A stretch of 42,195 bases of DNA from the NCBI GenBank assembly GCA_948471095.1, contig CAOKRG010000021.1, forward strand, positions 1 to 42,195, in the 5' to 3' direction. How positions within the stretch are numbered: position 1 is the stretch's first letter; each line of letters begins with the position of its first letter. Under the pieces are notes generated by a model. It saw only the letters and a list, made by a program, of their open reading frames with translations. It was not told where the DNA came from and made no database searches. Origin of the DNA: an uncultured Oscillospiraceae bacterium (GTDB taxonomy: Bacteria > Bacillota > Clostridia > Oscillospirales > Acutalibacteraceae). This document shows, piece by piece, positions 9,331-39,588 of the stretch. The position numbers and the translations under genes were made by a program.

Positions 9331-9345
9331 CAGGGGAAGGCGCGG

Positions 9346-9525
9346 GGGACTGTCCAACAGGGCGCAGTTTTTTGAAGTTTTACGGAGTGGCCTTCGCCGC
9401 AAAGGGCGCGGCTGCGGCAAGACCGTGGGACTCTGTCCCACACCCTGCCACTTTTGAAAAAGTGGACAAAACTTTTACTGTTACGCTCAGGGAGCTTTCT
9501 TCTTGTTAAAACGCTCGTCACTCCC
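9346..9525 (-). mobile_element. Mobile repeat, copy A (180 bp, 8-bp target duplication)
   Basis: A short non-coding element with degenerate terminal repeats: GGGACTGTCCAA at the left, CACTCCC at the right. It is bounded on both sides by the same 8 bases, AGGCGCGG (9338-9345 and 9526-9533), a perfect target duplication. Shared with the other copies, in reverse orientation here, are CTGAGCG-AACAGTAAAAGTTT, a CCACTTTT...AAAAGTGG stem, and ACTCCGTAAAACTTC. It also holds a 7-bp hairpin with a 3-nt loop (GTGGGAC-TCT-GTCCCAC, 9425-9441). No transposase is encoded; short peptide frames in it are spurious. It lies about 80 bases upstream of the ylxM promoter. Confidence 0.85.
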
Positions 9526-9608
9526 AGGCGCGGCTTTTTCGCTGGGCCTCTCCAGGCCACCGGGAGAAATTCCCCGAAAAAAACCCCGCAAGACGCGGAA
9601 TCTGGGTG

Positions 9609-9637
9609 TTGACAAACCGGGCCGTGTGGTGTATAAT
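9609..9637 (+). promoter_or_regulatory. Promoter of ylxM-ffh
   Basis: TTGACA (9609-9614), 17-base spacer, TATAAT (9632-9637): a consensus vegetative promoter. The transcript would begin near 9644 with a perfect 7-bp hairpin, TGTAAAG-ACCTCGG-CTTTACA (9646-9666), just before the ylxM ribosome site. Confidence 0.95.
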
Positions 9638-9690
9638 CCCATTAGTGTAAAGACCTCGGCTTTACAGGTTTGAAAGGAAGTGCCCGGCCC

Positions 9691-10059
9691 ATGGCGAAGG
9701 ATTTGAAAATTTCTTACTTGTTGGATTTTTACGGCGACATGCTCACCCAGGCCCAGTACGATGCGGTGGACGCCTACTACAACCAGGACCTCTCCCTGTC
9801 CGAGATTGCCGGAGACCGGAACATCAGCCGCCAGGGGGCCCGGGACGCCATTAAGCGGGCGGAGCAGCAGCTTTTGGAGATGGAGGAACGGCTGGGGCTG
9901 GCCAAACGCTTTCAAGCCGTGCAGAAGGCCCTGGCGGCGGTGTGCGACTGCGCCTTGAACATCCAAGAGCTAAACGCACAAAACGGCGGCGTGCCGGACA
10001 TTGACGAGAACGTGGGGAAAATTTTGGCCCTGGCCCAAGAAATTGCGGATAAAGAATGA
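9691..10059 (+). CDS. ylxM: YlxM family DNA-binding protein
   Basis: A 122-residue helix-turn-helix protein of the YlxM/p13 family, which in Firmicutes almost always sits directly before ffh and is thought to act with the signal recognition particle. Residues 7-60 show Y-L-L-D-F-Y-G-D-M-L-T and Y-Y-N-Q-D-L-S-L-S-E-I-A with N-I-S-R-Q-G-A-R-D-A-I, the family's helix-turn-helix signature; the rest is helical. The ATG at 9691 is preferred because it gives the canonical M-A-K-D-L-K-I-S; AAAGGAAG lies about 10 bases upstream. The hairpin in its leader may affect translation. Its exact biochemical role is not settled in the family. Confidence 0.93.
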   Translation: MAKDLKISYLLDFYGDMLTQAQYDAVDAYYNQDLSLSEIAGDRNISRQGARDAIKRAEQQLLEMEERLGLAKRFQAVQKALAAVCDCALNIQELNAQNGGVPDIDENVGKILALAQEIADKE

Positions 10060-10095
10060 AAAGCTTAACATAGGAAAATGTGGATGCAGAAAGCC

Positions 10096-10229
10096 AGCGC
10101 CCGCCACACCAAAAACCGGGCGCTAAGCGAACGCCTCCACCCCACCAAAAGCGTGTAAAAGTTCTTGAAGATTGTTAAGAAACTTCTTTCAAGAAGTTTC
10201 TTAACCAGAGCGCGAGACGGAGTCTCGCG
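10096..10229 (+). repeat. Three successive perfect hairpins between ylxM and ffh
   Basis: AGCGCCCG/CGGGCGCT (10096-10103 with 10117-10124); a 15-bp perfect inverted repeat GTTAAGAAACTTCTT/AAGAAGTTTCTTAAC separated by two bases (10174-10205); and CGCGAGAC-GGA-GTCTCGCG (10211-10229). The last two with the preceding GTAAAAGTT resemble the interior of the mobile repeats. None has a U-tract, so they are not standard terminators; they may tune read-through or mRNA processing before ffh. Confidence 0.8.
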
Positions 10230-10251
10230 ACCTTAAAAAGAGGTGATTCCC

Positions 10252-11601
10252 ATGGCATTTGAAGGATTGGCAGAAAAGCTCAGCAATTCGTTTAAAAAAC
10301 TGCGGGGCAAGGGCAAGCTCAACGAGGGCGACGTAAAGGAAGCCATGCGGGAGGTGCGCCTGGCGCTGCTGGAAGCGGACGTAAACTACAAGGTGGCCAA
10401 GGAACTCACCGGGAAAATCACCGAGCGGGCCATCGGCGCGGAGGTCATGGAGAGCCTGACCCCGGCCCAGATGGTCATTAAAATCGTCAACGAGGAGCTG
10501 ACCTCCCTGATGGGCGGCAGCGAAGAACGGCTGAAAATGCCAGCCCACCCGCCGGCCGTCATCATGATGTGCGGCCTGCAGGGCGCGGGCAAAACCACCC
10601 ACGCCGCCAAGCTGGCCTACATGCTGAAAAGCCAGGGCCGCCGGCCCCTGCTGGTGGCGGGGGACGTGTACCGCCCGGCGGCCATCAAGCAGCTGCAGGT
10701 GATGGGGGAGAAGGCGGGCGCTCCCGTGTTCGAGCGGGGGACCCAGGACCCGGTGGAGACCGCCAAGGAGGCGGTCAAGCACGCCAGGGACTATGGCCAC
10801 GACTATGTGCTCATCGATACGGCGGGCCGTTTGCAGATTGACGAGCAGCTGATGGACGAGCTGCGGCGGATGAAGGAGGCGGTCAACCCCACGGACGTGC
10901 TGCTGGTGGTGGACGCCATGATCGGCCAGGAGTCGGTGAACGTGGCCAAGACCTTCGACGAGCTGCTGGACATCACCGGCGTGATCCTCACCAAGCTGGA
11001 CGGCGACACCCGGGGCGGCGCGGCCCTTTCCATCAAGGCGGTGACGGGCAAGCCCATCAAGTTTGCGGGCACCGGCGAAAAGCTGGATGGGCTGGAGGTG
11101 TTCCACCCGGACCGGATGGCTGGGCGCATTTTGGGCATGGGCGACATGCTCTCTCTGATTGAGGACGCCCAGGCCCGCATGGACGAGAAGGCCGCCGCCA
11201 AAACCGCCGAGCGCATGCTGCACAACAAGCTGGACCTAAACGATATGCTGGACCAGTTCCAGCAGGTGAAGAAAATGGGGCCCATTAAGGGCATTCTCTC
11301 CAAGCTTCCGGGCTTGGGCAATAAAGTGGACGATTTGGACATTGACGAACGGATCATGGACCGCACAGCGGCCATCATCCTCTCCATGACCCCCTATGAG
11401 CGGGCCCACCCGGAGGAGCTGAACGCCTCCCGCAAAAGGCGCGTCGCGGCGGGCTGCGGCCAAAAGGTGGAGGATGTGAACCGGCTGCTGAACCAGTTCC
11501 GCCAGACCCAGAAGCTGATGAAGCAGTTCGGCGGCAAAAAGGGCAAAAAAATGATGCGCGGGCTGGGCGGCATGGGAAACATGGGCGGCATGCCCTTCTA
11601 G
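10252..11601 (+). CDS. ffh: Signal recognition particle GTPase Ffh
   Basis: The protein subunit of the signal recognition particle, which binds signal sequences and 4.5S RNA and docks with FtsY at the membrane. The 449-residue protein has the N domain (about 1-90), the G domain with G1 G-L-Q-G-A-G-K-T-T (108-116), D-T-A-G-R, T-K-L-D-G-D and the insertion box, and a methionine-rich M domain with M-D-R-T-A-A-I-I-L-S-M-T-P and R-R-V-A-A-G-C-G, ending in a Gly/Met-rich tail. The ATG at 10252 follows AAAGAGGTGA. It is cotranscribed with ylxM from the 9609 promoter unless the intervening hairpins stop some transcripts. The 4.5S RNA gene was not seen in the window. Confidence 0.98.
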   Translation: MAFEGLAEKLSNSFKKLRGKGKLNEGDVKEAMREVRLALLEADVNYKVAKELTGKITERAIGAEVMESLTPAQMVIKIVNEELTSLMGGSEERLKMPAHPPAVIMMCGLQGAGKTTHAAKLAYMLKSQGRRPLLVAGDVYRPAAIKQLQVMGEKAGAPVFERGTQDPVETAKEAVKHARDYGHDYVLIDTAGRLQIDEQLMDELRRMKEAVNPTDVLLVVDAMIGQESVNVAKTFDELLDITGVILTKLDGDTRGGAALSIKAVTGKPIKFAGTGEKLDGLEVFHPDRMAGRILGMGDMLSLIEDAQARMDEKAAAKTAERMLHNKLDLNDMLDQFQQVKKMGPIKGILSKLPGLGNKVDDLDIDERIMDRTAAIILSMTPYERAHPEELNASRKRRVAAGCGQKVEDVNRLLNQFRQTQKLMKQFGGKKGKKMMRGLGGMGNMGGMPF

Positions 11602-11611
11602 GAGGTGGATT

Positions 11612-11731
11612 ATGCTGGCGTTTGTGGACCAGCCGGCCCAGTACTTGGAGCACAGCGAGTATGTTGACTGGCGGGAACCGGCGGTTTTGGCGGCGCTGTA
11701 CCGCTCCGTAGGCTTCCGGGACTGCCGGTGA
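11612..11731 (+). CDS. 39-residue ORF after ffh, possible gene remnant
   Basis: A short frame with a good ribosome site (TAGGAGGTGG overlapping the ffh stop) encoding 39 residues, rich in acidic and aromatic residues (Y-L-E-H-S-E-Y-V-D-W). The opening looks like the N-terminus of a larger soluble protein, perhaps a transglutaminase-like one, cut short by a TGA, so it may be what is left of a deleted gene. I do not recognise it as an intact small protein. Confidence 0.35.
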   Translation: MLAFVDQPAQYLEHSEYVDWREPAVLAALYRSVGFRDCR

Positions 11732-11777
11732 GGCCTCTGGTTTCCATCAATCTTCTTCTATATAAGGAGGAATCCCC

Positions 11778-12134
11778 GTGATCACCCTAGGCGAAATCAG
11801 TCTTTTAACCAACGACGTGCCCCGGCTGGCGGACTTCTACAAGGCCCTGCTGGGTGTGGACAACCACAGCCAGGACCCGGTGCACCAGTTCATTTTGGAG
11901 GGCCCTGTGAGCTTGACTGTTTACAACGATGGGAGCCCCAAGAACAACCAAAACGAAAACGTCACTCTTGTCTTTACGGTGGACGATATGGACGCGGCCT
12001 ATGAAAAAGTGCTGGCCCTAGGCGCGCCGGTGCTTGAGAGCCCTACGAAGCGGCCATGGGGCGCGGTGAACATGAGCTTCCGCGACCCGGACGGCAATGT
12101 AGTTTATTTGAGGAGCTTTCCGCAAAACAGTTGA
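11778..12134 (+). CDS. VOC (glyoxalase/bleomycin resistance) family protein
   Basis: A 118-residue single-domain vicinal oxygen chelate protein: two beta-alpha-beta-beta-beta modules are visible (D-V-P-R-L-A-D-F-Y-K-A-L-L-G and V-D-D-M-D-A-A-Y-E-K-V-L-A-L-G), ending with F-R-D-P-D-G-N-V-V-Y-L, the family's usual close. The substrate is unknown; these small members include glyoxalase-like enzymes and drug-binding proteins. The GTG at 11778 is preceded by AAGGAGG at 7 bases. It sits between ffh and rpsP and is not part of the usual order of either operon. A 6-bp stem (GAGTGG/CCACTC, 12138-12154) follows the stop. Confidence 0.85.
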   Translation: MITLGEISLLTNDVPRLADFYKALLGVDNHSQDPVHQFILEGPVSLTVYNDGSPKNNQNENVTLVFTVDDMDAAYEKVLALGAPVLESPTKRPWGAVNMSFRDPDGNVVYLRSFPQNS

Positions 12135-12161
12135 CCGGAGTGGAATTCCCACTCTTATCAT
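12131..12161 (+). promoter_or_regulatory. Possible promoter of rpsP-khpA-rimM-trmD, overlapping a small dyad
   Basis: TTGACC (12131-12136) and TATCAT (12156-12161) or TTATCA one base earlier, 18-19 bases apart, about 35 bases before rpsP. A dyad GAGTGG-AATTC-CCACTC (12138-12154) fills the spacer and is followed by an AT-rich run; it could be a weak terminator of the VOC gene or an operator. Confidence 0.5.
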
Positions 12162-12197
12162 ATTTTTATTAACATTAATTATATGGAGGAAACAATC

Positions 12198-12440
12198 ATG
12201 GCAGTGAAAATCAGACTGCGCCGCATGGGCGCGAAAAAGAACCCCTTCTACCGCATCGTGGTGGCGGACTCCCGCTTCCCCCGGGACGGGCGCTTCATCG
12301 AAGAGATCGGGTACTATAACCCCATGGAGGAGCCCAGCGTGGTCAAGCTGGACCCGGAAAAGGCCAAGAAGTGGATCGAGAACGGTGCACAGCCCACCGA
12401 CACCGTCCGCGACCTCTTCAAAAAGCACGGCATTATCTAA
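12198..12440 (+). CDS. rpsP: Ribosomal protein bS16
   Basis: An 80-residue small-subunit ribosomal protein bS16 of normal length, with the family opening [18 protein letters not shown] and the G-Y-Y-N-P and Q-P-T-D-T-V motifs. It stabilises 16S rRNA during assembly of the body domain. ATG at 12198 follows TGGAGGAAAC. It leads the conserved rpsP-khpA-rimM-trmD operon, and an AT-rich stretch in front of it holds a possible promoter. Confidence 0.98.
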
Positions 12441-12479
12441 CAAATCCTGGAAAGGATATTATGTGTGGAGGTGAATAAC

Positions 12480-12710
12480 ATGGAGGATTTGCTCAAAGCC
12501 ATCGCCTCCGGGCTGGTGGAGAAGCCGGAAGAGGTTTCCGTTGCCAGCGAGGAGGGAGAGAACGGCGTGACCGTCTATCATCTGCACGTGGCGGAGGACG
12601 ACATGGGCCGGGTGATTGGCAAGCAGGGCCGCATCGCGAAAGCCATCCGCGTGGTCATGCGCGCCGCCGCAACCCGCAACGACAAGAAGATCATGGTGGA
12701 GATCGACTGA
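12480..12710 (+). CDS. khpA: KH-domain RNA-binding protein KhpA
   Basis: A 76-residue single KH-domain protein (YlqC/KhpA). The RNA-binding G-x-x-G loop is G-K-Q-G within R-V-I-G-K-Q-G-R-I-A-K-A-I-R, with K-I-M-V-E-I-D at the end. In other Firmicutes KhpA pairs with KhpB/Jag and affects cell elongation and division. Start at 12480 with GGAGGTG 6-7 bases upstream; a GTG at 12465 is possible but overlaps that site. It has the standard position between rpsP and rimM. Confidence 0.94.
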   Translation: MEDLLKAIASGLVEKPEEVSVASEEGENGVTVYHLHVAEDDMGRVIGKQGRIAKAIRVVMRAAATRNDKKIMVEID

Positions 12711-12729
12711 TCCCCCCAGGGAGGCTGCT

Positions 12730-13254
12730 GTGAAAGAGCGGTTTTTAGAAGCTGGAAAAATTGTCCGCAGCCATGGGGTCCGGGGGGAGCTGTGCCTGGA
12801 GCCCTGGGCGGATTCGGCGGAATTTCTGCTCCAGGTGAAAGATTTTTACTTCGACCGGATGGGAACCCAACCGGCGTGCCTGCTGGCCTCCCGTCCCCAC
12901 AAGGGACGGCTGCTGGTGACCCTGCGGGGGGTGGACTCCGTGGAAAAAGCCGACGCCCTGCGGGGCCGGGTGCTGTTTCTGGACCGGGAGGACGTCCGGC
13001 TGGAAAAGGGCCAATACTTCTTGCAGGACCTAATCGGCCTGCGGGCGGTGGACGGCCGCACAGGCCAGGAATACGGCACGCTGGCGGAGGTGCTTAACAC
13101 CCCGGCCAACGACGTGTACCGCATTGTAAAAGGGGATAGGGAATACCTGTTCCCGGCGGTGTCCCATATGATCCAGGAGACCGACCTGGAGGGCGGAGTC
13201 ATTCGTCTGCTGCCCATTCCCGGCATTTTCGATGGGGACGGGGAGGAAGCCTGA
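12730..13254 (+). CDS. rimM: Ribosome maturation factor RimM
   Basis: A 174-residue 16S rRNA processing factor that binds ribosomal protein uS19 during 30S head assembly. The N-terminal beta-barrel shows A-G-K-I-V-R-S-H-G-V-R-G-E-L and the C-terminal PRC-barrel shows Y-F-L-Q-D-L-I-G and V-Y-R-I-V-K-G, with L-P-I-P-G-I-F near the end. The start is a GTG at 12730, with GGGAGG a few bases upstream; the frame is open further back but that part overlaps khpA. The stop overlaps the trmD start (TGATG), indicating coupling. Confidence 0.95.
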   Translation: MKERFLEAGKIVRSHGVRGELCLEPWADSAEFLLQVKDFYFDRMGTQPACLLASRPHKGRLLVTLRGVDSVEKADALRGRVLFLDREDVRLEKGQYFLQDLIGLRAVDGRTGQEYGTLAEVLNTPANDVYRIVKGDREYLFPAVSHMIQETDLEGGVIRLLPIPGIFDGDGEEA

Positions 13255-13961
13255 TGCGGCTGGATATTTTTACTCTGTTTCCCGAGATGTTCCCAGCGGT
13301 GCTGGGGCACAGCATCGTGGGCCGGGCCCGGAGAAAGGGCCTCCTGCAGCTGTGCGTGCACCAGCTGCGGGATTTTTCCCCGGACCGGCGGGGCAGGGTG
13401 GACGATACGGTATTCGGCGGCGGCAAGGGCATGCTGCTGGCCGCGGAGCCCTTTGCCCAGGGCCTGGACCAGCTCAGCGAACACCTGGGTCTGCGGCCGC
13501 ATATTCTCTATATGTCCCCCCGGGGCCCGGTGCTGGACCAGGGGATGGCCCGGCGGCTGGCGGAGGAGCCGGCGCTTGCCATCCTCTGCGGCCACTATGA
13601 GGGCGTGGACCAGCGCCTGCTGGACGAATACCGGGTGGAGGAGGTCTCCATCGGCGACTATGTGCTCACCGGCGGAGAGCTGCCCGCCATGATTTTGGCG
13701 GACGCGGTCAGCCGGATGCTGCCCGGCGTACTTTCCGATGAAAGCTGCTTTACAGACGAAAGCCATTTTTCCGGGCTCTTGGAGCATCCTCAGTACACCC
13801 GGCCCGAGGTCTGGCGGGGCCGGCCCGTGCCGGAGGTGCTGCTTTCCGGCCATCACGGAAAAGTCCAGGCTTGGCGGCGGGAACAGTCCTTGGCCGTGAC
13901 CCAGCGGAACCGCCCGGATTTATACCAGGCCTGGCTGAAAAACCAGGCCCAAGGCACGTAA
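13254..13961 (+). CDS. trmD: tRNA (guanine37-N1)-methyltransferase
   Basis: Methylates N1 of G37 next to the anticodon to prevent frameshifting, using S-adenosylmethionine in a SPOUT trefoil knot. The 235-residue protein begins M-R-L-D-I-F-T-L-F-P-E-M-F, and has G-G-G-K-G-M, the knot motif S-I-G-D-Y-V-L-T-G-G-E-L-P, and the C-terminal Y-T-R-P-E-V-W-R-G region. It overlaps rimM by one base and is the last gene of the operon; a terminator-like hairpin lies 80 bases after its stop. Confidence 0.97.
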   Translation: MRLDIFTLFPEMFPAVLGHSIVGRARRKGLLQLCVHQLRDFSPDRRGRVDDTVFGGGKGMLLAAEPFAQGLDQLSEHLGLRPHILYMSPRGPVLDQGMARRLAEEPALAILCGHYEGVDQRLLDEYRVEEVSIGDYVLTGGELPAMILADAVSRMLPGVLSDESCFTDESHFSGLLEHPQYTRPEVWRGRPVPEVLLSGHHGKVQAWRREQSLAVTQRNRPDLYQAWLKNQAQGT

Positions 13962-14039
13962 TTTGGTTTCAAAAAATGGGTTTTTTCTTGGTGTTTTTAA
14001 GAAGAACTCGGTTGAATTACGAATCCGTCAAAAACTTTC

Positions 14040-14084
14040 CACAGTGCTAGTAAACCTGCACAATTTGGGTACTGTGAGTTTTTT
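14040..14084 (+). terminator. Terminator of the rpsP-trmD operon
   Basis: CACAGT (14040-14045) pairs with ACTGTG (14071-14076), with further interior pairing (AACC with GGGT), followed by AG and six T. A short AT-only hairpin (AAAAAA-TGGG-TTTTTT) just after trmD may add to termination. Confidence 0.6.
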
Positions 14085-14120
14085 GAGCTCTGTTCATGGA
14101 ACCAAAAATGAAAAAGCGTG

Positions 14121-14148
14121 TTGACGGCGGCGCAAAATATGGTATAAT
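14121..14148 (+). promoter_or_regulatory. Promoter of ptsH
   Basis: TTGACG (14121-14126), 16-base spacer, TATAAT (14143-14148). Transcription would start near 14155, leaving a leader of about 198 bases before ptsH. With the terminator at 14040 this accounts for most of the 391-base gap 13962-14352. Confidence 0.88.
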
Positions 14149-14154
14149 TAGCTT

Positions 14155-14352
14155 AAATTAAGAACTCTGGTGAGGCGCTTAAAGCTTGGGTTTAAAACCT
14201 AATTTCAAAGCCGAATGAAATTTTCATTCATCCAGCTTGAGGGAGGAGCCTCCAAGCTTTTAGTGGGGCCCTGCGAGCCGGGGGCCATACAATCCGGCTC
14301 AGTCCAAACGGAGACCCTGAGACCCCGATTTCAAAATTCTGTAGGAGAGTGA
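14155..14352 (+). promoter_or_regulatory. Long structured 5' leader of ptsH, class unknown
   Basis: About 198 bases of leader RNA with several paired elements: a long-range 9-bp helix AAAGCTTGG (14181-14189) with CCAAGCTTT (14252-14260); inside it two competing hairpins that share bases, AATTTCA (14201-14207)/TGAAATT (14216-14222) against GAATGA (14213-14218)/TCATTC (14224-14229); and GAGCCGG (14275-14281)/CCGGCTC (14294-14300). No T-box, TPP, SAM, FMN, cobalamin, lysine, glycine, purine or c-di-GMP core was recognised, and there is no internal U-tract terminator, so control of translation is more likely than attenuation. A cis-regulatory role is inference. Confidence 0.55.
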
Positions 14353-14622
14353 ATGTACATGTGCGCAAAGGAAGTTTTGGTTCAGAATCAGGTAGGCCTG
14401 CATGCCCGCCCGGCGACCTTCTTTATCCAGAAGGCAAATGAGTTCAAGTCCTCCATCTGGGTGGAGAAAGAGGAGAGAAGAGTCAACGCCAAGAGTCTGC
14501 TGGGCGTGTTGAGCCTGGGCATTGTGGGCGGCGTCACCATTCGCATCATCGCCGACGGCTCCGACGAGCAGCAGGCGGTGGACGCTTTGGTTGCCCTGGT
14601 TGATTCCGGCTTTGCGGAGTGA
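14353..14622 (+). CDS. ptsH: HPr family phosphocarrier protein
   Basis: An 89-residue HPr. The phosphorylatable histidine is His17 in V-G-L-H-A-R-P-A, and the regulatory serine region is N-A-K-S-L-L-G-V-L-S-L (Ser48), so both the PTS phosphotransfer site and the HPr-kinase site seem present. The ATG at 14353 is 5 bases from GGAG; the second ATG at 14359 is also usable. It stands alone, not next to ptsI (enzyme I), with its own promoter, long leader and terminator, so it is an independent unit and could serve catabolite control as well as sugar transport. Confidence 0.93.
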   Translation: MYMCAKEVLVQNQVGLHARPATFFIQKANEFKSSIWVEKEERRVNAKSLLGVLSLGIVGGVTIRIIADGSDEQQAVDALVALVDSGFAE

Positions 14623-14650
14623 GCCTGAGGAGGACACAGTTCGTTAAACG

Positions 14651-14676
14651 GCACCGCGTTTTGCGGTGCTTTTTTC
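14651..14676 (+). terminator. Terminator of ptsH
   Basis: Perfect 7-bp stem GCACCGC-GTTTT-GCGGTGC followed by seven T: a textbook intrinsic terminator. Confidence 0.96.
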
Positions 14677-14710
14677 TTAGAGGATTATGGGAGGAAAAGG
14701 AGGCGGCGGC

Positions 14711-16615: not shown

Positions 16616-16640
16616 CATACGGCGGAAAAAATGCGATAAT
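16612..16640 (+). promoter_or_regulatory. Promoter of rsmD-methyltransferase-coaD
   Basis: TTGACA (16612-16617) overlaps the uvrC stop codon; GATAAT (16635-16640) follows after 17 bases. About 50 bases upstream of the rsmD start. Confidence 0.9.
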
Positions 16641-16696
16641 AACAGGCGAATCTAAGATAAAGCATGCCCAAGGGCAGTCTTCCAGGAGGGGAAGCC

Positions 16697-17245: not shown

Positions 17246-17246
17246 G

Positions 17247-19701: not shown

Positions 19702-19829
19702 GGGAGCGGCAAAACGCGAACTTATTTTAGAGAAAAGCCAACTGAGCGCAACAGTAAAAGTTTCGTCCACCTTTTTAAAGGTGGCAGGGTTCTTAGAGGC
19801 GGAGCCCCTAAGCCGCCGGAGGCCGCTCC
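19702..19829 (+). mobile_element. Mobile repeat, copy B (about 128 bp, decayed)
   Basis: Left end GGGAGCGGCAAAACGCG matches the family's GGGAGTGTCCAAAACGCG; right end GGCCGCTCC is a poor copy. Inside are CTGAGCGCAACAGTAAAAGTTTC, a CCACCTTTT/AAAGGTGG stem and CTTAG-AGGCGGAGCCC-CTAAG. It lacks the ACTCCGTAAAACTTC block and no target duplication was found, so it looks old or internally deleted. It separates mraZ from rsmH. Confidence 0.7.
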
Positions 19830-19903
19830 GCAATACGCCCTTTACTATTCCCGAAATGCAAAACAGTTTTCCCGGCACTTCAGAAACAAGGAGGCGGTTT
19901 CCC

Positions 19904-32804: not shown

Positions 32805-32816
32805 GGAGGGAGCATA

Positions 32817-33203
32817 ATGGGAATGATGCAAGGCGTACACCATATTGCCGTGAAGCCCACGGCGGAACAGTATCAGGAAACCGTAGACTTCTACACCAAA
32901 CTATTGGGGATGGAGATTAAGAAGAGCTGGGGCGATCCCCAGCGGCCCTGTTTGATGGTCTCCTGCGGGGATAATACCTGTATGGAGATTCTGAGCAGCG
33001 GCAGCGAGATCCCCGCAGGCGGCCCGCTGGCCCATATCGCGTTTGCCACGGACAAGGTGGACGAAATCATCGAGAAGGTCCGTGAGGCTGGCTATGAGAT
33101 TACCAACGAGCCTGCCGACGTGGAGCTGGGCGGCGCACCCATCCGCATCGCGTTCTTCTATGGACCCACCCACGAACATATCGAGCTCTTCTGGGAAAAA
33201 TAG
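32817..33203 (+). CDS. VOC (glyoxalase) family protein
   Basis: A 128-residue vicinal oxygen chelate protein. H-H-I-A-V-K-P at the start, P-L-A-H-I-A-F-A-T-D in the middle and H-E-H-I-E-L-F at the end place metal-ligand His and Glu as in lactoylglutathione lyase-like and methylmalonyl-CoA epimerase-like members; the substrate is unknown. It starts 13 bases after ftsZ with AAGGAGGGAGC as site, so may be cotranscribed with ftsZ. It is unlike the VOC gene at 11778 in its ligand residues. Confidence 0.87.
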   Translation: MGMMQGVHHIAVKPTAEQYQETVDFYTKLLGMEIKKSWGDPQRPCLMVSCGDNTCMEILSSGSEIPAGGPLAHIAFATDKVDEIIEKVREAGYEITNEPADVELGGAPIRIAFFYGPTHEHIELFWEK

Positions 33204-33286
33204 CGCTCCTTTGACCATTGCCGGAGTCCGCCCTTCTGGTTTTTCGCCGGAAAGCAGCAGAAGAATCAGAAGGGAGGCCAAATCAG

Positions 33287-33871
33287 ATGAATCAGGAGCT
33301 TTTGCTAAAGGCCTACGGCGCGCTTTACGGCCCCGAGGCCGGCCCCTGGAATCTTTCGGTGGAGCAAAAATATCTGGAATACCGCATCACCGCCTTTTTT
33401 GAGGAGAATTTCTCCCTAGAGAAGGGCGCGGACGTCTGCAACATCGGCGTTGGCGCGGGTTATTGGGACCGCTACCTCAGCTACCGGCTGAACGGAGGGA
33501 CCCTCACCAGCATCGACGTTGACCCGGAGATCTGCCGGGTCTTCCAGGCAGGTCTGCTCAATGAGGAGAATCCCAACCCGGTGACGGTGGTCAACAAAGA
33601 CGTGATGGACTGCGGGGAGCTGGCGGGCCGGTTCGATGTGGTGACCATGGTTGGCAGCACCCGCATGGAAAGCGGTATGTTCGAGAGTATTTTGAGAATG
33701 GCCGCCGGTTTTTTGAAGCCGGGGGGCGCGCTCTACTATCAGTCGCTGGCCCAGGACGAGGACCCGGAGGATGTGCGGGCCCTGTGGGAAAAGCTGGGCC
33801 TGCGGGTGAAGAAATATTGGTCCGAGGCCCCCTTTGGCCGGACCTATCATTACTGGAACCTAACCGCCTGA
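33287..33871 (+). CDS. SAM-dependent methyltransferase-like protein
   Basis: A 194-residue protein with a class I methyltransferase fold: V-C-N-I-G-V-G-A-G-Y-W-D-R (motif I, with N in place of the usual D), S-I-D-V-D-P-E-I (acidic loop), F-D-V-V-T-M-V-G-S and F-L-K-P-G-G-A-L-Y-Y-Q. The substrate is unknown. ATG at 33287 lies 9 bases from AGGGAGG; the longer frame upstream has no support. It is 83 bases after the VOC gene. Confidence 0.82.
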   Translation: MNQELLLKAYGALYGPEAGPWNLSVEQKYLEYRITAFFEENFSLEKGADVCNIGVGAGYWDRYLSYRLNGGTLTSIDVDPEICRVFQAGLLNEENPNPVTVVNKDVMDCGELAGRFDVVTMVGSTRMESGMFESILRMAAGFLKPGGALYYQSLAQDEDPEDVRALWEKLGLRVKKYWSEAPFGRTYHYWNLTA

Positions 33872-33943
33872 GCGGGCGGTGGAAGCAAGGCGGCTCCGGC
33901 TGAGTGCCGGGGCCGTCCATTTTGTAGTAAGGAGCGGTAGCCT

Positions 33944-34987
33944 ATGCCATTGCCCGGCGTGGAGCAGCCAAAGGTCATCCCTCTGGCGGAGAATTTTCGG
34001 CTTAAGCGCTATGACGGCCATTATGAGAAGGCCCTGCCCGGCTATCAGGACCCGGTGGTGTACCAGAACTCGGAGGGCATTTTTGACGAGAGCAAAATTC
34101 CCGATCTAAACTATGTGAAGGGCATGTGCGAATATTTGGATAAGCATGGAGAGCTCTACTTCATCGAGGCCCTGGAGGACGGAGTCTGGACTCCGGTGGG
34201 CGATGTGACCATCAAGCCGGAGAACCCGCCCATCGCCCTGTGGTTTGCGTCGTACCGGGGCCGGGGCATTGGGACGCTGGTGATGAAAAAGGTGATGGAG
34301 CGCCTGCGAAGCCTGGGCTATGCAAAAATTGCTAGCTCCACGGTATACAAGTGGAACCAAGCCTCCCTGGCTCTGCACCAAAGGCTGGGCTTTCACATAG
34401 TACGGGAGACGGAGCAGGATTATTACTTAGAGTTGGACCTGACACAGGAGGGGGAGAACATGGAGGAAATCAGACTGCACACCAGCGAGCTGGGCGAGAA
34501 AGCTGCCCTGCTGCGGGCAGGCCAGCGGGTATTGCTCAGCGGTACGGCCTACACCAGCCGGGACGCGGCCCACAAGCGCATTACCCAACAGCTGGACCAG
34601 GGCCAAGAGCCGCCCTACCCCTTGGCCGGGGCGGCTATTTATTATGCAGGCCCCACCCCCGCGCCGGAAGGCCTTCCCATCGGCTCCTGCGGCCCCACCA
34701 CCAGCACCCGCATGGACCCCTATACCCCCCGTTTTTTGGACCTGGGGGTAAAGGCCATGATCGGCAAAGGAAAACGGGGTCCCGCGGTAGTGGAGGCCAT
34801 GAAGCGCAACGGCGCGGTCTACCTGTGCGCCATCGGCGGGGCTGGGGCCTTAGCCGCCCGGTGCATCACCCAATGCCAGGTCATTGCTTTTGAAGATCTG
34901 GGCTGCGAGTCGGTGAAGCGGCTGACATTGCGGGATTTCCCCCTAATTGTGGGCATAGACTGTACGGGCGGGAGCATTTTAGCGTAA
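33944..34987 (+). CDS. GNAT acetyltransferase joined in frame to fumarase beta-like domain
   Basis: A single 347-residue frame. Residues 1-172 are a GNAT acetyltransferase with the acetyl-CoA loop Y-R-G-R-G-I-G-T-L-V-M and N-Q-A-S-L-A-L-H-Q-R-L-G-F. Residues 173-347 match the beta (C-terminal) part of class I iron-sulfur fumarase/tartrate dehydratase: L-L-S-G-T-A-Y-T-S-R-D-A-A-H-K-R, G-S-C-G-P-T-T-S-T-R-M-D, G-K-G-K-R-G. At the junction there is an ideal internal start: AGGAGG (34446-34451) 8 bases before ATG 34460, which is exactly where a stand-alone fumarase beta would begin. So both a fusion and a separate 175-residue beta protein may be made. No alpha subunit gene is nearby. Start 33944 with AAGGAG upstream. 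Confidence 0.85.
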   Translation: MPLPGVEQPKVIPLAENFRLKRYDGHYEKALPGYQDPVVYQNSEGIFDESKIPDLNYVKGMCEYLDKHGELYFIEALEDGVWTPVGDVTIKPENPPIALWFASYRGRGIGTLVMKKVMERLRSLGYAKIASSTVYKWNQASLALHQRLGFHIVRETEQDYYLELDLTQEGENMEEIRLHTSELGEKAALLRAGQRVLLSGTAYTSRDAAHKRITQQLDQGQEPPYPLAGAAIYYAGPTPAPEGLPIGSCGPTTSTRMDPYTPRFLDLGVKAMIGKGKRGPAVVEAMKRNGAVYLCAIGGAGALAARCITQCQVIAFEDLGCESVKRLTLRDFPLIVGIDCTGGSILA

Positions 34988-34999
34988 GGAAGTGGTACC

Positions 35000-36184
35000 A
35001 TGTTCGATGGGATTATGAAGCGCCTGGTCAAGGGCTATGGCCGGGACGGGAGCCCGGAGGTCCGGGAGCGGAGCGGCCGGGCGGCTGGGGCGGTGGGCGT
35101 TGCCACCAACCTGCTGCTGTTCGCCATCAAGCTGGCGGCGGGGCTCTTGTCCCATAGCGTGGCCATTTTGGCGGACGCGGTAAACAATCTGACCGATTCC
35201 GGCTCCTCCATCATCATGCTGGTGGGCTTTAAGCTGGCCGGAAAGCCCGCCGATGCGGAGCACCCCTTTGGCCACGCCCGCATCGAGTACCTGTGCGGGG
35301 TCATTGTGTCCTTCATCGTGCTGTTCTTGGGGCTGGAGCTGGGCATTTCCTCGGTGGAGAAAATCTTTGCCCCAGAGGCGGCGGAGTTTGGCCCTGTGGC
35401 TTTGGCCGTGCTGGGGGTTTCGGTGCTGCTGAAGCTTTGGCAGTGCTTTTTTTACCTGCGGGTGGGCAGGACCATCGGCAGCCAGGCCCTGACCGCCACG
35501 GCCAGCGACAGCCGGAACGACGTAATCGCCACCTCGGTGGTGCTGCTGGGCGCGGTGATCACCCGGCTGACCAATCTGCGCCTGGACGGCTGGCTGGGGC
35601 TGGCCGTGGCGGTCTTCATCGTGGTTTCCGGAGTAAAGCTGGTGGGGGAGACCGCCGGCCCCCTGCTGGGCATGGCCCCGGACCAGGAGCTGGTGCGCAG
35701 GATTTACGAGAAGATCCGCTCTTATGAAGGCGTGGTGGGCATCCACGACCTGGCGGTGCACAGCTATGGGGAGGGCCGGTGCTTTGCCACGGTCCACTGC
35801 GAAGTGCCTGCGGAAGAGGACGTGATGGTCAGCCACGACCGGATTGACAACATTGAGCGGGACTTCTGGACCCAGGAGCACATCAACCTGGTGATCCACA
35901 TGGACCCGGTGGTCACCAACGATCCCCGGGCCGAAGCGCTGCGTGCCCAGGTGCTGGACTGTGTAAGACAGGCTTGCCCCCAGGCGGGCATCCACGACTT
36001 CCGGGTGGTGTGGGGCGTGACCCATTCCAACATCGTGTTCGACGCGGCGGTGCCCTTCTCCGCGCCGGACAGCGACCTGCTGCTTCGGGCCAAGATCATC
36101 CGGGAGATTGAGAAGCTGGACCCCAGCTACCGGGTGGTGCTGACCATCGACCGGGAGGGCGTGGTCAACGAGCTGGAAACTTAG
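35000..36184 (+). CDS. Cation diffusion facilitator family transporter
   Basis: A 394-residue metal/proton antiporter of the CDF family: six spans in the first 230 residues and an extended cytoplasmic domain after. Metal-site residues visible are N62-x3-D66 in span 2 (N-N-L-T-D) and D170-x3-D174 in span 5 (D-S-R-N-D), with H-P-F-G-H-A-R-I-E-Y between; D-x3-D in span 5 is a pattern linked to Mn/Fe rather than Zn members, so manganese export is a reasonable guess. The C-terminal domain is longer than usual. ATG at 35000 follows AGGAAGTGG. Its last codons and stop are the target of mobile repeat copy C. Confidence 0.92.
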   Translation: MFDGIMKRLVKGYGRDGSPEVRERSGRAAGAVGVATNLLLFAIKLAAGLLSHSVAILADAVNNLTDSGSSIIMLVGFKLAGKPADAEHPFGHARIEYLCGVIVSFIVLFLGLELGISSVEKIFAPEAAEFGPVALAVLGVSVLLKLWQCFFYLRVGRTIGSQALTATASDSRNDVIATSVVLLGAVITRLTNLRLDGWLGLAVAVFIVVSGVKLVGETAGPLLGMAPDQELVRRIYEKIRSYEGVVGIHDLAVHSYGEGRCFATVHCEVPAEEDVMVSHDRIDNIERDFWTQEHINLVIHMDPVVTNDPRAEALRAQVLDCVRQACPQAGIHDFRVVWGVTHSNIVFDAAVPFSAPDSDLLLRAKIIREIEKLDPSYRVVLTIDREGVVNELET

Positions 36185-36581
36185 GGAGTGTCCAAAAGGA
36201 CGCAGTTTTTTGGGAGTTTTACGGAGTGGGGTCTCGCCTGCCGGCTCGGTCGGGTCAGAACGATTGCCACTGGCAATCTTCCCCCTCCGGCGGTCAAGTT
36301 CATCAAAGATGAACTTGCGGGGCTCAGGGTCTCGGCTGCCGTGTCTCCGCTGCCGCTTCGGTCGAGTTGACAAAGTCAACTCGTGGTCAGAACGGTCCCC
36401 ACCGGGGACCTTCCCCCTCGGTCGGTTCGCGGCATGTCTGCCACCGGCAGACGCCCACCCCCTAAGAACCCACGAGTTATCCAAGGGATAACTCGTCCAC
36501 TTCTTGAAAAAGTGGACAAAACTTTTACTGTTGCGCTCAGGAAGCTTTCTTCTTGCTAAAACGCGCGTTTTGGACACTCCC
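36184..36581 (-). mobile_element. Mobile repeat, copy C (398 bp, perfect ends and target duplication)
   Basis: The best copy. Perfect 14-bp terminal inverted repeats, GGGAGTGTCCAAAA (36184-36197) and its complement (36568-36581), flanked on both sides by GAAACTTA (36176-36183 and 36582-36589), an 8-bp target duplication (9 bp if the shared G counts). It carries no transposase. The interior holds seven perfect hairpins, six with 3-nt loops: 36262-36278, 36296-36316, 36363-36383, 36394-36410, 36436-36452, 36472-36496 (11-bp stem), plus 36495-36516. It fills nearly all of the 450-base gap 36185-36634. Confidence 0.92.
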
Positions 36582-36634
36582 GAAACTTAGCCCCATCTCG
36601 CGGGCCGGGACGGTTTCGTTTCTCTTTTTGAAAT

Positions 36635-37708
36635 TTATGCGGAGGCTGGGGCTTCTGCCTCTTTCAGTTCTGTTCCGGGGTAATAGTGGGCCAAAATCTC
36701 TTTATAGTCCGCCCCCCGCTTGGCCAGAAACACCGCCCCGGCTTGGCTCATGCCCACGCCGTGGCCCCAGCCCCGCACTGTGAAATCAAATACGCCCTCT
36801 TCCCTGGTAAAGGTGAACCCGGCGCTGCGCAGGCCCAAAGCGGCCCGCAGCTCCGGCCCTGTGACGGTCTTGCCGCCCAGCTTGGCCTCCTTCACCATGC
36901 GGGAGGGGGTATATTTTATTTCTGTAAGCCATTCCTCCGGCGGGCCGGACAGGTCCGGCGGGTTGTCCGGAAAAGCCGCTGCCACCGCCTCCCGGAAATC
37001 CTCGTCCGTCATCTGTACCTGGCTCAGGTAGCCGTCGCTGAAAGCGTCTCCGGGGCTGGCCACGGCCTGTAGGTAGGGGTGCTCTTCCGCCGCGTCCGGG
37101 GACCAGACGTTTTCCGCAGCCTCGGTGCCGCCGGTAGAGATGGCGAAATAAGCCGCCAAAATAGGCTGGCCCTGATAGGTGAGCAGCTGGCCCTCCACCG
37201 GGTCCACCGCGGCGGAAATGGCGGCTCGGTAGTCCTCGTAGTCCTCGCCCCAGCGCTCCCGCATGGCGCTTTCCGGCACATAGACCAGCCAGTTGGCAGG
37301 GTCGCAGGCAATGGCCTGCCCCTGGGCCCGCTGGCGGCTGTAATAGGTGTAGGAGGCCACGGCCTGGGCCTTTAGGGCCTCGGGGGGAGAAGAGAGGTCC
37401 ATCTCGCAGGCCAGGGAGGCCTCCACAAGCTCCCGCTCAGACACGGTGAAGGTTTCGCCGGTGGAGGCGTCGCGCAGGGTAAAAACTCCTTGGGCCTGGG
37501 GGCTGCTTTGGGGTGAGGCCTGCGCTTCCGGCGAACCGCCGGGGTCCGCGCCCGATTCCGCGCCGGATGGGGGGCTAGGGCTGGGCGCGGGCGGCTTTGC
37601 CGGCATGGGGCTGGCCCGGTAGATTCCCCATGGGATCAGGGCGATGAGAGCGTACAGGAGCAAAAAGGAGAGAACCAGACGTTTTAAGGTGGGGCTGGCG
37701 TGTTTCAT
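36635..37708 (-). CDS. spoIID: Stage II sporulation protein D
   Basis: A 357-residue membrane-anchored lytic transglycosylase used in forespore engulfment with SpoIIP and SpoIIM. It has an N-terminal anchor (about 9-29, L-V-L-S-F-L-L-L-Y-A-L-I-A-L-I), a Pro/Ser-rich linker, then the SpoIID domain with catalytic Glu in C-E-M-D, P-P-E-A-L-K-A-Q-A-V-A-S-Y-T-Y, Y-F-A-I-S-T-G-G, and the closing W-G-H-G-V-G-M-S-Q-A-G-A. ATG at 37708 has CGGAGG 7 bases upstream; the longer frame is unsupported. No sigma-E consensus was found by eye. Its presence supports a spore-forming lineage. It stands alone on the minus strand. Confidence 0.94.
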   Translation of the reverse strand: MKHASPTLKRLVLSFLLLYALIALIPWGIYRASPMPAKPPAPSPSPPSGAESGADPGGSPEAQASPQSSPQAQGVFTLRDASTGETFTVSERELVEASLACEMDLSSPPEALKAQAVASYTYYSRQRAQGQAIACDPANWLVYVPESAMRERWGEDYEDYRAAISAAVDPVEGQLLTYQGQPILAAYFAISTGGTEAAENVWSPDAAEEHPYLQAVASPGDAFSDGYLSQVQMTDEDFREAVAAAFPDNPPDLSGPPEEWLTEIKYTPSRMVKEAKLGGKTVTGPELRAALGLRSAGFTFTREEGVFDFTVRGWGHGVGMSQAGAVFLAKRGADYKEILAHYYPGTELKEAEAPASA

Positions 37709-37806
37709 GGGATGCCTCCGTTTTACATAATTAGAACTGGTTCGATTCAAAAATTGCGTTTATTGCGCAAGACTATTTGTATACGCCTCTAAAAATGAAG
37801 TTCGCA

Positions 37807-37857
37807 TTGCAATATGTTGCAAATTATCTTGACTTACGAAAGCGCTGCCGCTAAAAT
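37807..37857 (+). promoter_or_regulatory. Citrate synthase promoter with upstream TTGCAA dyad
   Basis: TTGACT (37829-37834), 17-base spacer, TAAAAT (37852-37857). Seven bases above the -35 is TTGCAA-TATG-TTGCAA (37807-37822), two self-complementary hexamers that look like a dimer operator. The leader then forms a perfect 9-bp hairpin AGGCTGGGA-GGCTTG-TCCCAGCCT (37875-37898). Confidence 0.8.
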
Positions 37858-37938
37858 AGAAAGATATAGGCCAAAGGCTGGGAGGCTTGTCCCAGCCTCT
37901 TGATCCTTATGAGATAAAACCTAAAGGAGGTCCCCGTC

Positions 37939-39306
37939 ATGCGGCGACTGAACAACGAGAGCCCCCAAAGCACCACCATGCAGGAGCTCTGCGCGGAATA
38001 CCGGAAGAACAACGCCATCTCCCGCCAGGAGTACGAGACCCACCGGGTCAAACGGGGCCTGCGCAACCCGGACGGCACCGGAGTTATGGCCGGACTCACC
38101 CATGTGTGCAATGTCCACGGCTATCTGATAGACGATGGAGACAAAATTCCCGACCAAGGGCGGCTCACCTACCGGGGCATCAACATGGAGGATATTGTCC
38201 GGGGCTGCCAGGCGGAGGGACGCTTTGGCTTTGAGGAGGTGGTCTGGCTGCTGATTTTCGGCAAGCTGCCGGACCGCCGGCAGTTTGGGCGCATCTGCGA
38301 GCTGCTGTATGAGAACCGGGAGCTGCCGGAATATTTTCCCGAGGACATGATCATAAAGGCGCCCTCCAAAAACGTGATGAACAAGCTGGCCCGTTCGGTG
38401 CTGGCACTCTATTCTTATGACGACGACCCGGAGGACATGTCTCTGGAAAACAATATGCGTCAGAGTATTTCCTTGATTGCCCGCCTGCCCTCCATTATGG
38501 CCTATTCCTACCAGGTGAAGCGCCGGCATTTCGACAAGGAGAGCATGTTTTTCCATCCCTATGAGCCCGGCCACCGGACGGCCGAGGCCATTCTCAACTC
38601 CCTGCGCCCGGACCGGAAATTCACCCGGGAGGAGGCGGAGCTTTTGGACCTGTGCATGGTTCTGCACGCGGAACATGGGGGCGGCAACAACTCCACCTTC
38701 ACCACCCGGGTGCTCACCTCGGCGGGCACGGACATCTATTCCGCCATCGGGGCGGCCATCGGGTCCCTAAAGGGCTTCCGCCACGGCGGGGCCAACCACC
38801 GGGTGGTGAACATGATGGGGGAGATCATGGCCAATGTCAAGGACTGGGCCGATGAAGAAGAGATCTCCCGCTATCTGGAAAAGATTCTGCGCAAAGAGGC
38901 CGGGGACGGCAGCGGGCTTATTTACGGCATGGGCCACGCCATCTACACGGTGTCCGACCCCCGGGCGGTCATACTGAAGGAAAAGGCCAAGGCGCTGGCC
39001 GCGGAAAAAGGCTATGACAAGCGGCTGGCCCTTTATGAGCGGATCGAGCGGCTTTCCCCCCAGGTCTTCCACCAGGTGACGGGCAAGGAAAAGGCCATCT
39101 GCGCCAATGTGGATTTTTATTCCGGCCTGGTGTACGAGATGCTGGGCATCCCGGAGGAACTGTACACGCCCATGTTCGCCGTGTCCCGCATAGCCGGATG
39201 GTGCGCCCACCGGATCGAGGAGCTGACCACCGGCGGGCGGATTATGCGTCCGGCCTACCGGGCCCTGCCGGTAAAGCAGAAGTATGTGCCCCTGGACCAA
39301 CGCTGA
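37939..39306 (+). CDS. gltA: Citrate synthase
   Basis: Condenses oxaloacetate and acetyl-CoA to citrate. The 455-residue protein has the active-site residues in order: His282 in R-H-G-G-A-N, His333 in G-M-G-H-A-I-Y, with S-D-P-R-A, and Asp392 in N-V-D-F-Y-S-G. The first histidine motif is G-F-R-H-G-G-A-N-H-R-V where most enzymes have G-P-L-H-G-G-A-N-E-A, a feature of the clostridial branch as I recall it, and an N-terminal extension of about 35 residues is present. ATG at 37939 follows AAAGGAGG. It is a single-gene unit with its own promoter and leader hairpin, in an organism where it probably feeds glutamate synthesis. Confidence 0.96.
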   Translation: MRRLNNESPQSTTMQELCAEYRKNNAISRQEYETHRVKRGLRNPDGTGVMAGLTHVCNVHGYLIDDGDKIPDQGRLTYRGINMEDIVRGCQAEGRFGFEEVVWLLIFGKLPDRRQFGRICELLYENRELPEYFPEDMIIKAPSKNVMNKLARSVLALYSYDDDPEDMSLENNMRQSISLIARLPSIMAYSYQVKRRHFDKESMFFHPYEPGHRTAEAILNSLRPDRKFTREEAELLDLCMVLHAEHGGGNNSTFTTRVLTSAGTDIYSAIGAAIGSLKGFRHGGANHRVVNMMGEIMANVKDWADEEEISRYLEKILRKEAGDGSGLIYGMGHAIYTVSDPRAVILKEKAKALAAEKGYDKRLALYERIERLSPQVFHQVTGKEKAICANVDFYSGLVYEMLGIPEELYTPMFAVSRIAGWCAHRIEELTTGGRIMRPAYRALPVKQKYVPLDQR

Positions 39307-39588
39307 GAAAATGGAAAAAGCCTACTGAGCGCAACAGTAAAAGTTTCGTCAACCTTTTCAAAGGTTGCGGGGTTTTCAGGGGCAGAGCCCCTGAACCGCC
39401 GGAGGGGGAAGATTGCCAGTGGCAATCGTTCTGACCCGACCGAGCCGGCAGGCGAGACCCCACTCCGTAAAAACTTCAAAAAAACTACGTCCTGTGCGCC
39501 GGAAGGTGAGCGTCTGCCAGTAGCAGACAAGCTGCGACCCGGCCGAGCCACTCCGTAAAACTTCAAACCGCTCCCTTTGGACACTCCC
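39307..39588 (+). mobile_element. Mobile repeat, copy D (about 280 bp, compound)
   Basis: Right end TTTGGACACTCCC (39576-39588) matches the family end; the left terminal repeat is missing, as if lost at the citrate synthase stop. It shares with C, in opposite orientation, CTGAGCGCAACAGTAAAAG, GATTGCC-AGT-GGCAATC and CACTCCGTAAAA, and repeats the last block twice, so it looks like a joined pair of partial copies. A 7-bp hairpin CAGGGGC-AGA-GCCCCTG (39377-39393) may act as a transcription end for citrate synthase. It fills most of the gap 39307-39666. Confidence 0.8.

Follow-up and report, generated by a model that had tools for sequence, protein, structure and literature searches.

Double-hairpin elements inside and outside a miniature inverted-repeat element family in an Oscillospiraceae genome and other Clostridia

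The window, i.e., the whole stretch of DNA analysed here (42,195 nt of contig CAOKRG010000021.1, from an uncultured Oscillospiraceae bacterium), contains four copies, A to D, of a miniature inverted-repeat element (MITE) whose GGGAGTGTCC-type ends define a large family in this genome. A sequence-only reading of the window had described four copies with common ends; the description holds for copies A and C, whereas copy B is degenerate and copy D has one end. Copy A (9346..9525, forward strand) is identified by its ends and by an exact 8-bp target duplication, AGGCGCGG, in the flanking sequence (left 9338..9345; right 9526-9533), and gave no match to R1, our model of the double-hairpin elements (DHEs) described below. 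Copy C (36184..36581, forward strand) is complete, its left and right 14-bp ends both being perfect, and is flanked by two copies of GAAACTTA (left 36176..36183; right 36582-36589); both duplications had been reported in the earlier reading and both are exact. Copy B (reverse strand) runs from 19702 to 19852 (about), and not to 19829 as first proposed. Its ends are degenerate, with no GGGAGTGTCC end, and its flanks agree at 4 of 8 positions, i.e., there is no target duplication (ends and flanks were judged by eye); a module match places the right-end module GCGCAACAGTAAAAGTTT at 19746-19763. Copy D (39307..39588, reverse strand) is composite, consisting, as judged by eye, of a left end, a piece resembling a type Y DHE and a second, truncated left end; its right terminus is missing, and its single good end lies at 39575-39588 (1 mismatch).

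Copy C owes much of its length to inserted DHEs and short hairpins. A type X DHE occupies 36230..36284 (forward strand) at the first of three MITE insertion sites (site 1), as supported by filled/empty comparison of this site and by an R1 score of 82.7 bits for a sequence that belongs to the seed of R1. Next to it lies a short perfect hairpin with an AAA loop, visible in the sequence (36295..36317). The following type Y DHE (36328..36459, forward strand; nhmmer match to Y at 36417-36460, 5' part assigned by eye) has its first hairpin split by a second DHE. This nested element is of type X (36342..36415, forward strand; R1 matches at 36342-36382 and 36385-36415, nhmmer match to X at 36343-36416) and itself carries a short hairpin at about 36363-36383. 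Copy C ends with another visible short hairpin, with an AAG loop (36472..36496), and the MITE right-end module (36509..36581, forward strand), found with an nhmmer right-end profile that has this copy in its seed. In copy D, a type X DHE (39405..39459, reverse strand; R1 82.7 bits, also in the model's seed) fills site 1 in the second MITE piece.

Allowing up to 3 mismatches, the 14-mer end matched at 10 places in the window, where shuffles gave a mean of 3.7. In the genome-wide search that the earlier reading had proposed, it matched 62 times with no more than 1 mismatch, the reversed control yielding 0; right-end modules, with up to 3 mismatches allowed, numbered 206, compared with 4 in the control. 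Paired copies span 126-508 bp and are too short to encode a full DDE transposase. Target duplications were counted in 62 unique paired copies, from which 11 with poor ends were removed beforehand, leaving 51 with both ends scoring at least 7/10. Exact duplications flank 18 of these 51 two-ended copies (8 bp in 12 cases, 9 bp in 4, and 7 bp and 10 bp in 1 each), while the other 33 lack any exact duplication in the 7-10 bp range. Duplications of 8 or 9 bp were thus found in 16/51 copies, against 0.31 expected in shuffles (0.25 for 8 bp and 0.06 for 9 bp). With terminal inverted repeats common to many copies and with target site duplications, the family has two of the features of a MITE, and the earlier view of a non-autonomous family that has undergone real transposition is upheld; what has to be given up is a duplication of strictly 8 bp, as 8 and 9 bp both occur. 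Phages and plasmids searched with copy C gave no match, and a pattern search of public contigs with the right-end module gave 0 matches.

Target duplications of 8-9 bp are the rule in the IS256 family, and the mixture of 8 and 9 bp in the MITE suggests an IS256-type transposase as its mover. The candidate families named at the outset can be narrowed in this direction: ISL3 and IS1595 were each found in 0/29 genus genomes (the IS1595 model being positive in only 1/14 control genomes), whereas IS256 is favoured by the duplication lengths and a partial similarity of ends, yet its profile PF00872 had 0 matches in the window's own genome (G000, 86.6% complete). Across the 30 genomes searched, G000 included, PF00872 was present in 6, in 5 of them above the cut-off. 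The end similarity concerns GGTAGTGTCA, an IS256 end of genus genome G001 that marks the start of homology between two G001 copies and is identical to GGGAGTGTCC at 8/10 positions; by contrast, the other end of the same copy and one end of the G005 copy start with GATAA. None of the transposase loci examined (10 of 11) had GGGAGTGTCC ends, the closest match being an unaccompanied one with 2 mismatches at locus L088, and IS256 elements were rejected as direct partners of the MITE. IS6 elements have 14-bp ends; they were rejected as well, with no IS6 match in the window's genome, and MITE ends (up to 3 mismatches) were absent from 6 genus IS6 loci save for one match in L234, about 1 kb upstream of an IS6 gene scoring below the cut-off. 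The full insertion sequence with GGGAGTGTCC-type ends that the earlier reading had called for, i.e., an autonomous partner, did not appear among the IS256, IS6, ISL3 and IS1595 genes that made up the search.

The DHEs are double-hairpin elements of ~55 bp, in which a short first hairpin and a linker (TCGGTC) are followed by a second hairpin composed of an outer stem, a 4-nt bulge, a 7-bp inner stem and a CACTG-type closing loop. Their stems vary with compensation and the loop is conserved. In an alignment of 41 distinct rows (A1), 90.2% of cells were paired and 110 cells had changed on both sides of the stems, with a covariation of 0.452, against 0.133 in the shuffled control and no more than 0.081 after sliding. 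A second alignment (A2), of 57 distinct rows from public contigs that belong mainly to other families, gave 95.9% paired cells, 93 cells with both sides changed and a covariation of 0.283 against 0.073, values that lean towards the model structure as the rows were fitted to the model. Other measures did not beat the shuffles: pairs with double change in A1 numbered 9 against 7.8 (100/500 shuffles equally high), further pair types 20 against 18.1 (85/500), and further pair types in A2 were likewise no better (118/500). Two outer-stem pairs were broken in 27/41 and 28/41 rows of A1, and one first-hairpin pair in 27/57 rows of A2.

Such strong stem covariation is also what speaks for DHEs being structured RNAs, regulatory or processed, that are copied via an RNA intermediate, and RNA intermediates have been proposed for the small hairpin elements (SDRs) of cyanobacteria. 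We nevertheless consider this explanation unlikely: the stems vary freely yet contain few G-U pairs (4 of ~592 standard pairs in A1 and 7 of ~851 in A2), and the A1 consensus has no U run. Rfam gave 0 matches at gathering score within the window, and a relaxed scan of 36100-36700 returned a single weak CRISPR-repeat match (E 4.4) outside the element; a known RNA family was accordingly rejected as an identity for the DHE.

The core blocks of the MITE copies, taken in the earlier reading as part of the element, are a separate DHE family that is also present outside the MITE. Were MITE and blocks a single element, the DHE-like blocks would be internal domains that deletion has removed from some copies and spared in others, and two observations agree with this: in own-genome loci a MITE end lies within 350 bp of 59/63 DHEs (these loci were chosen for MITE features), and fillings recur at the same three MITE sites. 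Against it, a MITE end lies within 350 bp of 1/44 DHEs in genus loci and 0/77 in class loci, i.e., at 1/121 examined copies outside the window's genome. Of 19 further DHE loci in the window's own genome, 7 matched a MITE end and 12 did not, in a set that omits loci fetched earlier for MITE features and so leans away from MITEs. DHEs in other families occupy other host repeats (L215, from another lineage, has a host repeat of its own, present both with and without a DHE), and the same MITE site can be filled by different DHE versions, with at least 2 different inner stems at each of the three sites. A single element therefore seems very improbable.

DHEs insert at these three fixed sites of the MITE and into one another. 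In the fetched own-genome loci, filled and empty copies numbered 20 and 50 at site 1, 13 and 36 at site 2, and 15 and 84 at site 3; 15/63 own-locus DHEs fit none of the three. Where several copies have the same filling at one site, they may have inherited it when the MITE was copied, without each being an independent insertion. Of 108 deduplicated DHE sites, 10 were bordered by a stem of 6 bp or more, against 0.9 expected (15/122 against 4.5 with a looser window); palindrome centres are thus enriched as insertion points, but 98/108 sites show no such stem and the feature is not general. DHEs lie in stop-free frames in 15/63 own, 17/44 genus and 6/77 class cases, a count that we regard as uninformative, since chance alone produces long open frames in DNA this rich in G+C. 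In the pairs of filled and empty sites that were compared, there was no target duplication, and about 0-3 nt had been lost at the junction. Both properties are compatible with a spread that needs no dedicated enzyme and proceeds by replication slippage, template switching between hairpins and horizontal transfer in larger DNA, as are the near-perfect palindromes and the tandem DHE pairs at L209, L289 and L271. We find this account rather doubtful, as near-identical copies at many different sites within one genome and recurring DHE boundaries both argue for a specific process.

DHEs were detected in 26/29 genus genomes and also in Lachnospiraceae, Oscillospiraceae and Ruminococcus genomes; they occur, in other surroundings, across many gut and rumen Clostridia, and some genomes have well over a hundred copies. 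Within the genus, G014, G021 and G024 are examples of DHE-rich species, and G010, G018 and G020 of DHE-free ones. Four exact patterns had 0 matches in IMG/VR, and none of the titles listed in searches of the open-licence PMC library dealt with such elements in Clostridia. The distribution bears on whether DHEs are REP/REPIN-like sequences that owe their mobility to a Y1 (RAYT-type) transposase. Enzymes of this type act on substrates that bulged single hairpins resemble, and the window's genome has one gene matching PF01797, which served as a stand-in for RAYT and is not a RAYT-specific model. On the other side, PF01797 occurs in 9/29 genus genomes without tracking DHE number: it is absent from G007 (69 DHE matches; 99% complete), G014 (130; 87%), G024 (138; 86%) and G026 (66; 85%), while G010 has two PF01797 genes and zero DHE matches. 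Among the 18 Y1 loci, a DHE turned up only at L177, where it lay ~1.2 kb away from a Y1 match that scored under the family's cut-off. REP/REPIN sequences with RAYT are likewise short palindromes at high copy number (PMC3733652, PMC3116915), but the A1 consensus of the DHE ends without a GTAG or CGTC tag and DHEs have no Y1 transposase link. Movement by such an enzyme appears distinctly unlikely, and Y1/RAYT is not supported as the DHE mover, with neither the terminal tag nor a PF01797 gene that accompanies DHEs.

We consider it likely that the window records two layers of mobile DNA, a MITE moved in trans and a family of ~55-bp DHEs: the former because its many copies have ends in common and include some flanked by 8-9-bp target duplications, the latter because of filled and empty sites, differing types per site, occurrence outside the MITE and compensated stems. 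The MITE would be moved by a DDE transposase, most likely IS256-like. DHEs would enter the MITE at a small number of fixed points, as well as repeats of other lineages and other DHEs, leaving no target duplication and, for some of them, at a palindrome centre. They may move as folded single-stranded DNA, exposed hairpins capturing them through a trans-acting enzyme or host repair, and MITE copying could then multiply the DHEs on board. No transposase in the families searched had ends like those of the MITE, and no enzyme was linked to DHEs. The scarcity of G-U pairs could also reflect template-switch correction of palindromes, not movement of single-stranded DNA.

We take the SDR elements of cyanobacteria to be the nearest known kind to DHEs. 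They are 21-27 nt long, reportedly form very small dispersed hairpins with compensated stems, and are said to occur within minitransposons and within each other; no enzyme is known to move them. DHEs are likewise dispersed, conserved in structure with compensation, and nested in minitransposons and in each other, but, compared by description only, they differ in length (~55 nt), in having two hairpins and in residing in Clostridia. SDR elements were described in Nostoc and its relatives (Elhai et al. 2008, Genome Res, as cited in PMC3116915 and PMC4390886). Double-hairpin or repetitive hairpin elements are also documented in fungal, algal and sponge mitochondria (PMC2800124); they too are dispersing hairpins, those of Allomyces without flanking duplications, but they are organellar, and in the sponge elements stems are conserved and loops differ. 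DHEs, unlike the sponge elements, have a conserved CACTG-type loop, and it is their stems that change, with compensation. Tentatively, DHEs might form a mobile micro-element class of their own in Clostridia, defined less by sequence than by shape, in which a folded single DNA strand of ~55 nt enters the hairpins of repeats, crosses families and gives rise to nested hairpins by means of neither a DDE nor a RAYT enzyme. The host repeats that such a class would use are MITEs, other intergenic repeats, tRNA remnants and other DHEs.

Our results suggest that hairpins this small are able to pass from one genome to another, and they warn that blocks within bacterial MITEs need not be parts of the MITE. 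The element, its covariance model and its fixed docking sites, both filled and empty, would make it testable how elements spread that no ordinary transposon model fits because of their small size. If the interpretation is correct, gut and rumen Clostridia would carry a very small mobile element that is identified mainly by its folded shape.

Copies A (9346-9525) and C (36184-36581) carry both the ends and the 8-bp duplications that the sequence-only reading had claimed for a non-autonomous mobile element family with shared 14-bp ends, here called MITE (miniature inverted-repeat element). Copy B (first placed at 19702-19829, later at about 19702-19852), which had been counted as a family copy, is a degenerate relative whose flanks, compared by eye, are identical at just 4 of 8 positions, and copy D (39307-39588), by eye, is a composite with one terminus lost. 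The expectation that the ends would be common to further copies was borne out in the genome that holds the window (2.52 Mb in 83 contigs, 86.6% complete): allowing up to one mismatch, the 14-mer matched 62 times and its reversed control 0 times, and allowing up to three, a right-end-proximal module matched 206 times and its control 4 times, so that the family is far larger than four copies. The 14-mer was matched in 38 of 60 relatives searched (own genome counted), most having one to a few matches, about the control level; higher counts beyond the own genome were found in G005 (23), G015 (17), G001 (12), G021 (11) and G011 (10).

To assess target duplications, we took 131 stretches of the own genome (252 kb, including the window) picked around end or module matches, used profiles to match left with right ends and removed double counts from the two orientations, leaving 62 elements; the tested set was the 51 in which each end kept 7 or more of 10 canonical bases. 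Identical flanks of 7, 8, 9 and 10 bp were found in 1, 12, 4 and 1 of these copies, compared with 0.03, 0.25, 0.06 and 0.01 expected from shuffled right flanks; the other 33 had no exact duplication of 7-10 bp. When one mismatch was tolerated, 17 copies fitted 8 bp and 11 fitted 9 bp (exact ones included). Because exact flank duplications exceed the shuffled level, they show that the MITE has transposed. The 8-bp duplications initially described thus extend to the family (12/51 exact), albeit not as a strict length, given the four exact cases of 9 bp. A mixture of 8- and 9-bp duplications is known for IS256 rather than for IS6, IS66, ISL3 or IS1595.

The IS256 transposase profile (PF00872) was matched in 6 of 30 genomes searched, with no match in the window's genome at its 86.6% completeness. 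In G001, homology between two IS256 copies starts with GGTAGTGTCA, which resembles the MITE end at 8 of 10 positions; unlike the MITE end, that copy's opposite end and one end of a copy in G005 start with GATAA. Profiles for IS1595 and ISL3 (PF12762 and PF01610) had no match in 29 genomes of the genus, and that for IS6 (PF13610) was matched in 5 of the 29 and had no hit in the window's own genome. Searches with these four profiles yielded no partner transposase for the MITE, which, judging from its duplications, would have been moved by a DDE enzyme working on its ends. The only Y1_Tnp (RAYT-type) gene found in the window's genome lies in L168 (G000:C4), a stretch that also has a match to the MITE right end (about 185-239, E 1.1e-7), the two matches being over 1 kb apart.

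The core blocks, originally assigned to the MITE, belong instead to a separate double-hairpin element of about 55 bp (DHE; types X, Y, Z and W), as became apparent from aligning the blocks and counting their proximity to MITE ends. With copy C as query, matches were found in 25 of 29 genus genomes, and those listed outside the window's genome were confined to query positions 35-124 or 202-292, inside the element, the exceptions being a G021 match from position 1 and four G019 matches within 276-356. In other genomes, a MITE end was found within 350 bp of the DHE for one of the 44 genus copies (L158, weakly matched) and for none of the 77 class copies. Of 63 DHEs in loci of the window's genome picked by MITE features, 59 were near a MITE end, and among 19 other DHE loci of that genome (drawn from the list of the covariance model R1, leaving out loci previously fetched; a 20th stretch had no DHE) 12 had no MITE end match and 7 had one. 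The DHE is not part of the MITE.

R1 detected the DHE in 26 of 29 genus genomes, with the highest counts in the window's genome (at least 148) and G021 (at least 149). Under stricter filters, an even draw of the class gave DHEs in 18 of 291 genomes (own counted) from several families. An exact DHE pattern occurred in at least 80 stretches of public genome contigs, mostly MAGs, with titles among those listed naming Lachnospiraceae, Blautia, Butyrivibrio, Choladousia, Limivivens, Pullilachnospira, Oscillospiraceae and Ruminococcus; two DHE patterns had no match in 2.9 million viral contigs.

The aligned element spans 55 columns. Its first hairpin has three pairs and is followed by TCGGTC; the second comprises an outer stem (at most six pairs), a four-base bulge and a seven-pair inner stem closed by a CACTG-type loop. 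Across 41 distinct rows, 90.2% of cells were standard pairs, 110 cells were double-changed and 9 of 16 pairs were changed on both sides. The covariation score was 0.452, compared with 0.133 for shuffles and at most 0.081 for slid versions, and counts of double-changed pairs and of further pair types were no better than shuffles. Two outer-stem pairs were broken in 27 and 28 of the 41 rows, hence the outer stem is only partly retained in type X; G-U pairs were scarce (4 cells). A second alignment, built on public contigs (57 distinct rows), had 95.9% of cells paired and 93 double-changed, figures to be read with caution because its rows were fitted to the model; one first-hairpin pair was broken in 27 of them. 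A longer hairpin of other sequence takes the place of the first one in Butyrivibrio and in one further Lachnospiraceae genome (L243:5087-5149, L261:1105-1167, L256:891-954).

Copy C is a stack, in which the MITE holds a type Y DHE, the type Y is split by a type X DHE and a short hairpin lies within that type X; site 1, one of three DHE insertion points within the MITE, is occupied by another type X. The insertion point of the MITE itself is the stop codon of an ORF (35000-36184), and a TAG stop was remade from the 8-bp duplicated bases and the first G of copy C (36176-36184, 36582-36590). Within both MITEs and DHEs there are recurrent short hairpins whose loop is AAA or AAG and whose stems vary (36295-36317, 36363-36383, 36472-36496); they have the appearance of a third inserted family, smaller than the other two.

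In the fetched loci, sites 1, 2 and 3 were filled/empty in 20/50, 13/36 and 15/84 cases, each with at least two different inner stems (types X, Y and Z at site 1; Y, Z and W at site 3), and 15 of 63 DHE copies lay outside all three. Entry at GTGG^CCTCCGG and CTCTG^CCCCTAAG involved neither loss nor duplication, save for one unplaceable C, while at the third site two bases were replaced ahead of CCTTTTC. In L215, which comes from a different family of the class, one locus contains an intergenic repeat in both filled and empty form; further pairs are Blautia loci L252 and L260, and a tRNA-Arg remnant (L156) set against the intact gene (L175). Among the pairs listed, at the MITE sites and elsewhere, none had a target duplication of the DHE. 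At 10 of 108 deduplicated sites, compared with 0.9 expected, the immediate flanks of the DHE form a stem of 6 bp or longer.

In several genomes of other class families, the DHE landing site is an intergenic repeat of the host that carries TTTAGGCAAGGG or TTTACACAAGGG (L213, L215, L217, L224, L226, L227). DHEs also lie beside or within incomplete tRNA sequences that include a T-arm-like stretch (L156:1505-1559, between anticodon arm and T arm; L209:3418-3703, L271:2386-2492 and L281:777-831, each near an intact tRNA gene), which may have been left behind by integrating elements. A tandem array 3' of a tRNA-Leu gene (L307:3780-4080) has a unit with one intact and further decayed DHE-like copies.

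The nearest kinds to the DHE are the SDR elements of cyanobacteria, together with mitochondrial hairpin elements. The former are cited in PMC3116915 and PMC4390886 and the latter are covered in PMC2800124; REPs (PMC3733652) differ from the DHE in tag and enzyme. Among the titles listed from the open-licence PMC literature, we found no description of such elements in Clostridia. Y1 transposases were considered as DHE movers and are not supported, as their presence does not follow the DHEs in the 29 genus genomes. Since the stems vary freely with few G-U pairs, the perfect palindrome seems important at the DNA level, and a route through folded single-stranded DNA is favoured. The DHE would be captured as a folded single strand of DNA at exposed hairpins, and those copies lying in the MITE may then have multiplied through MITE copying.
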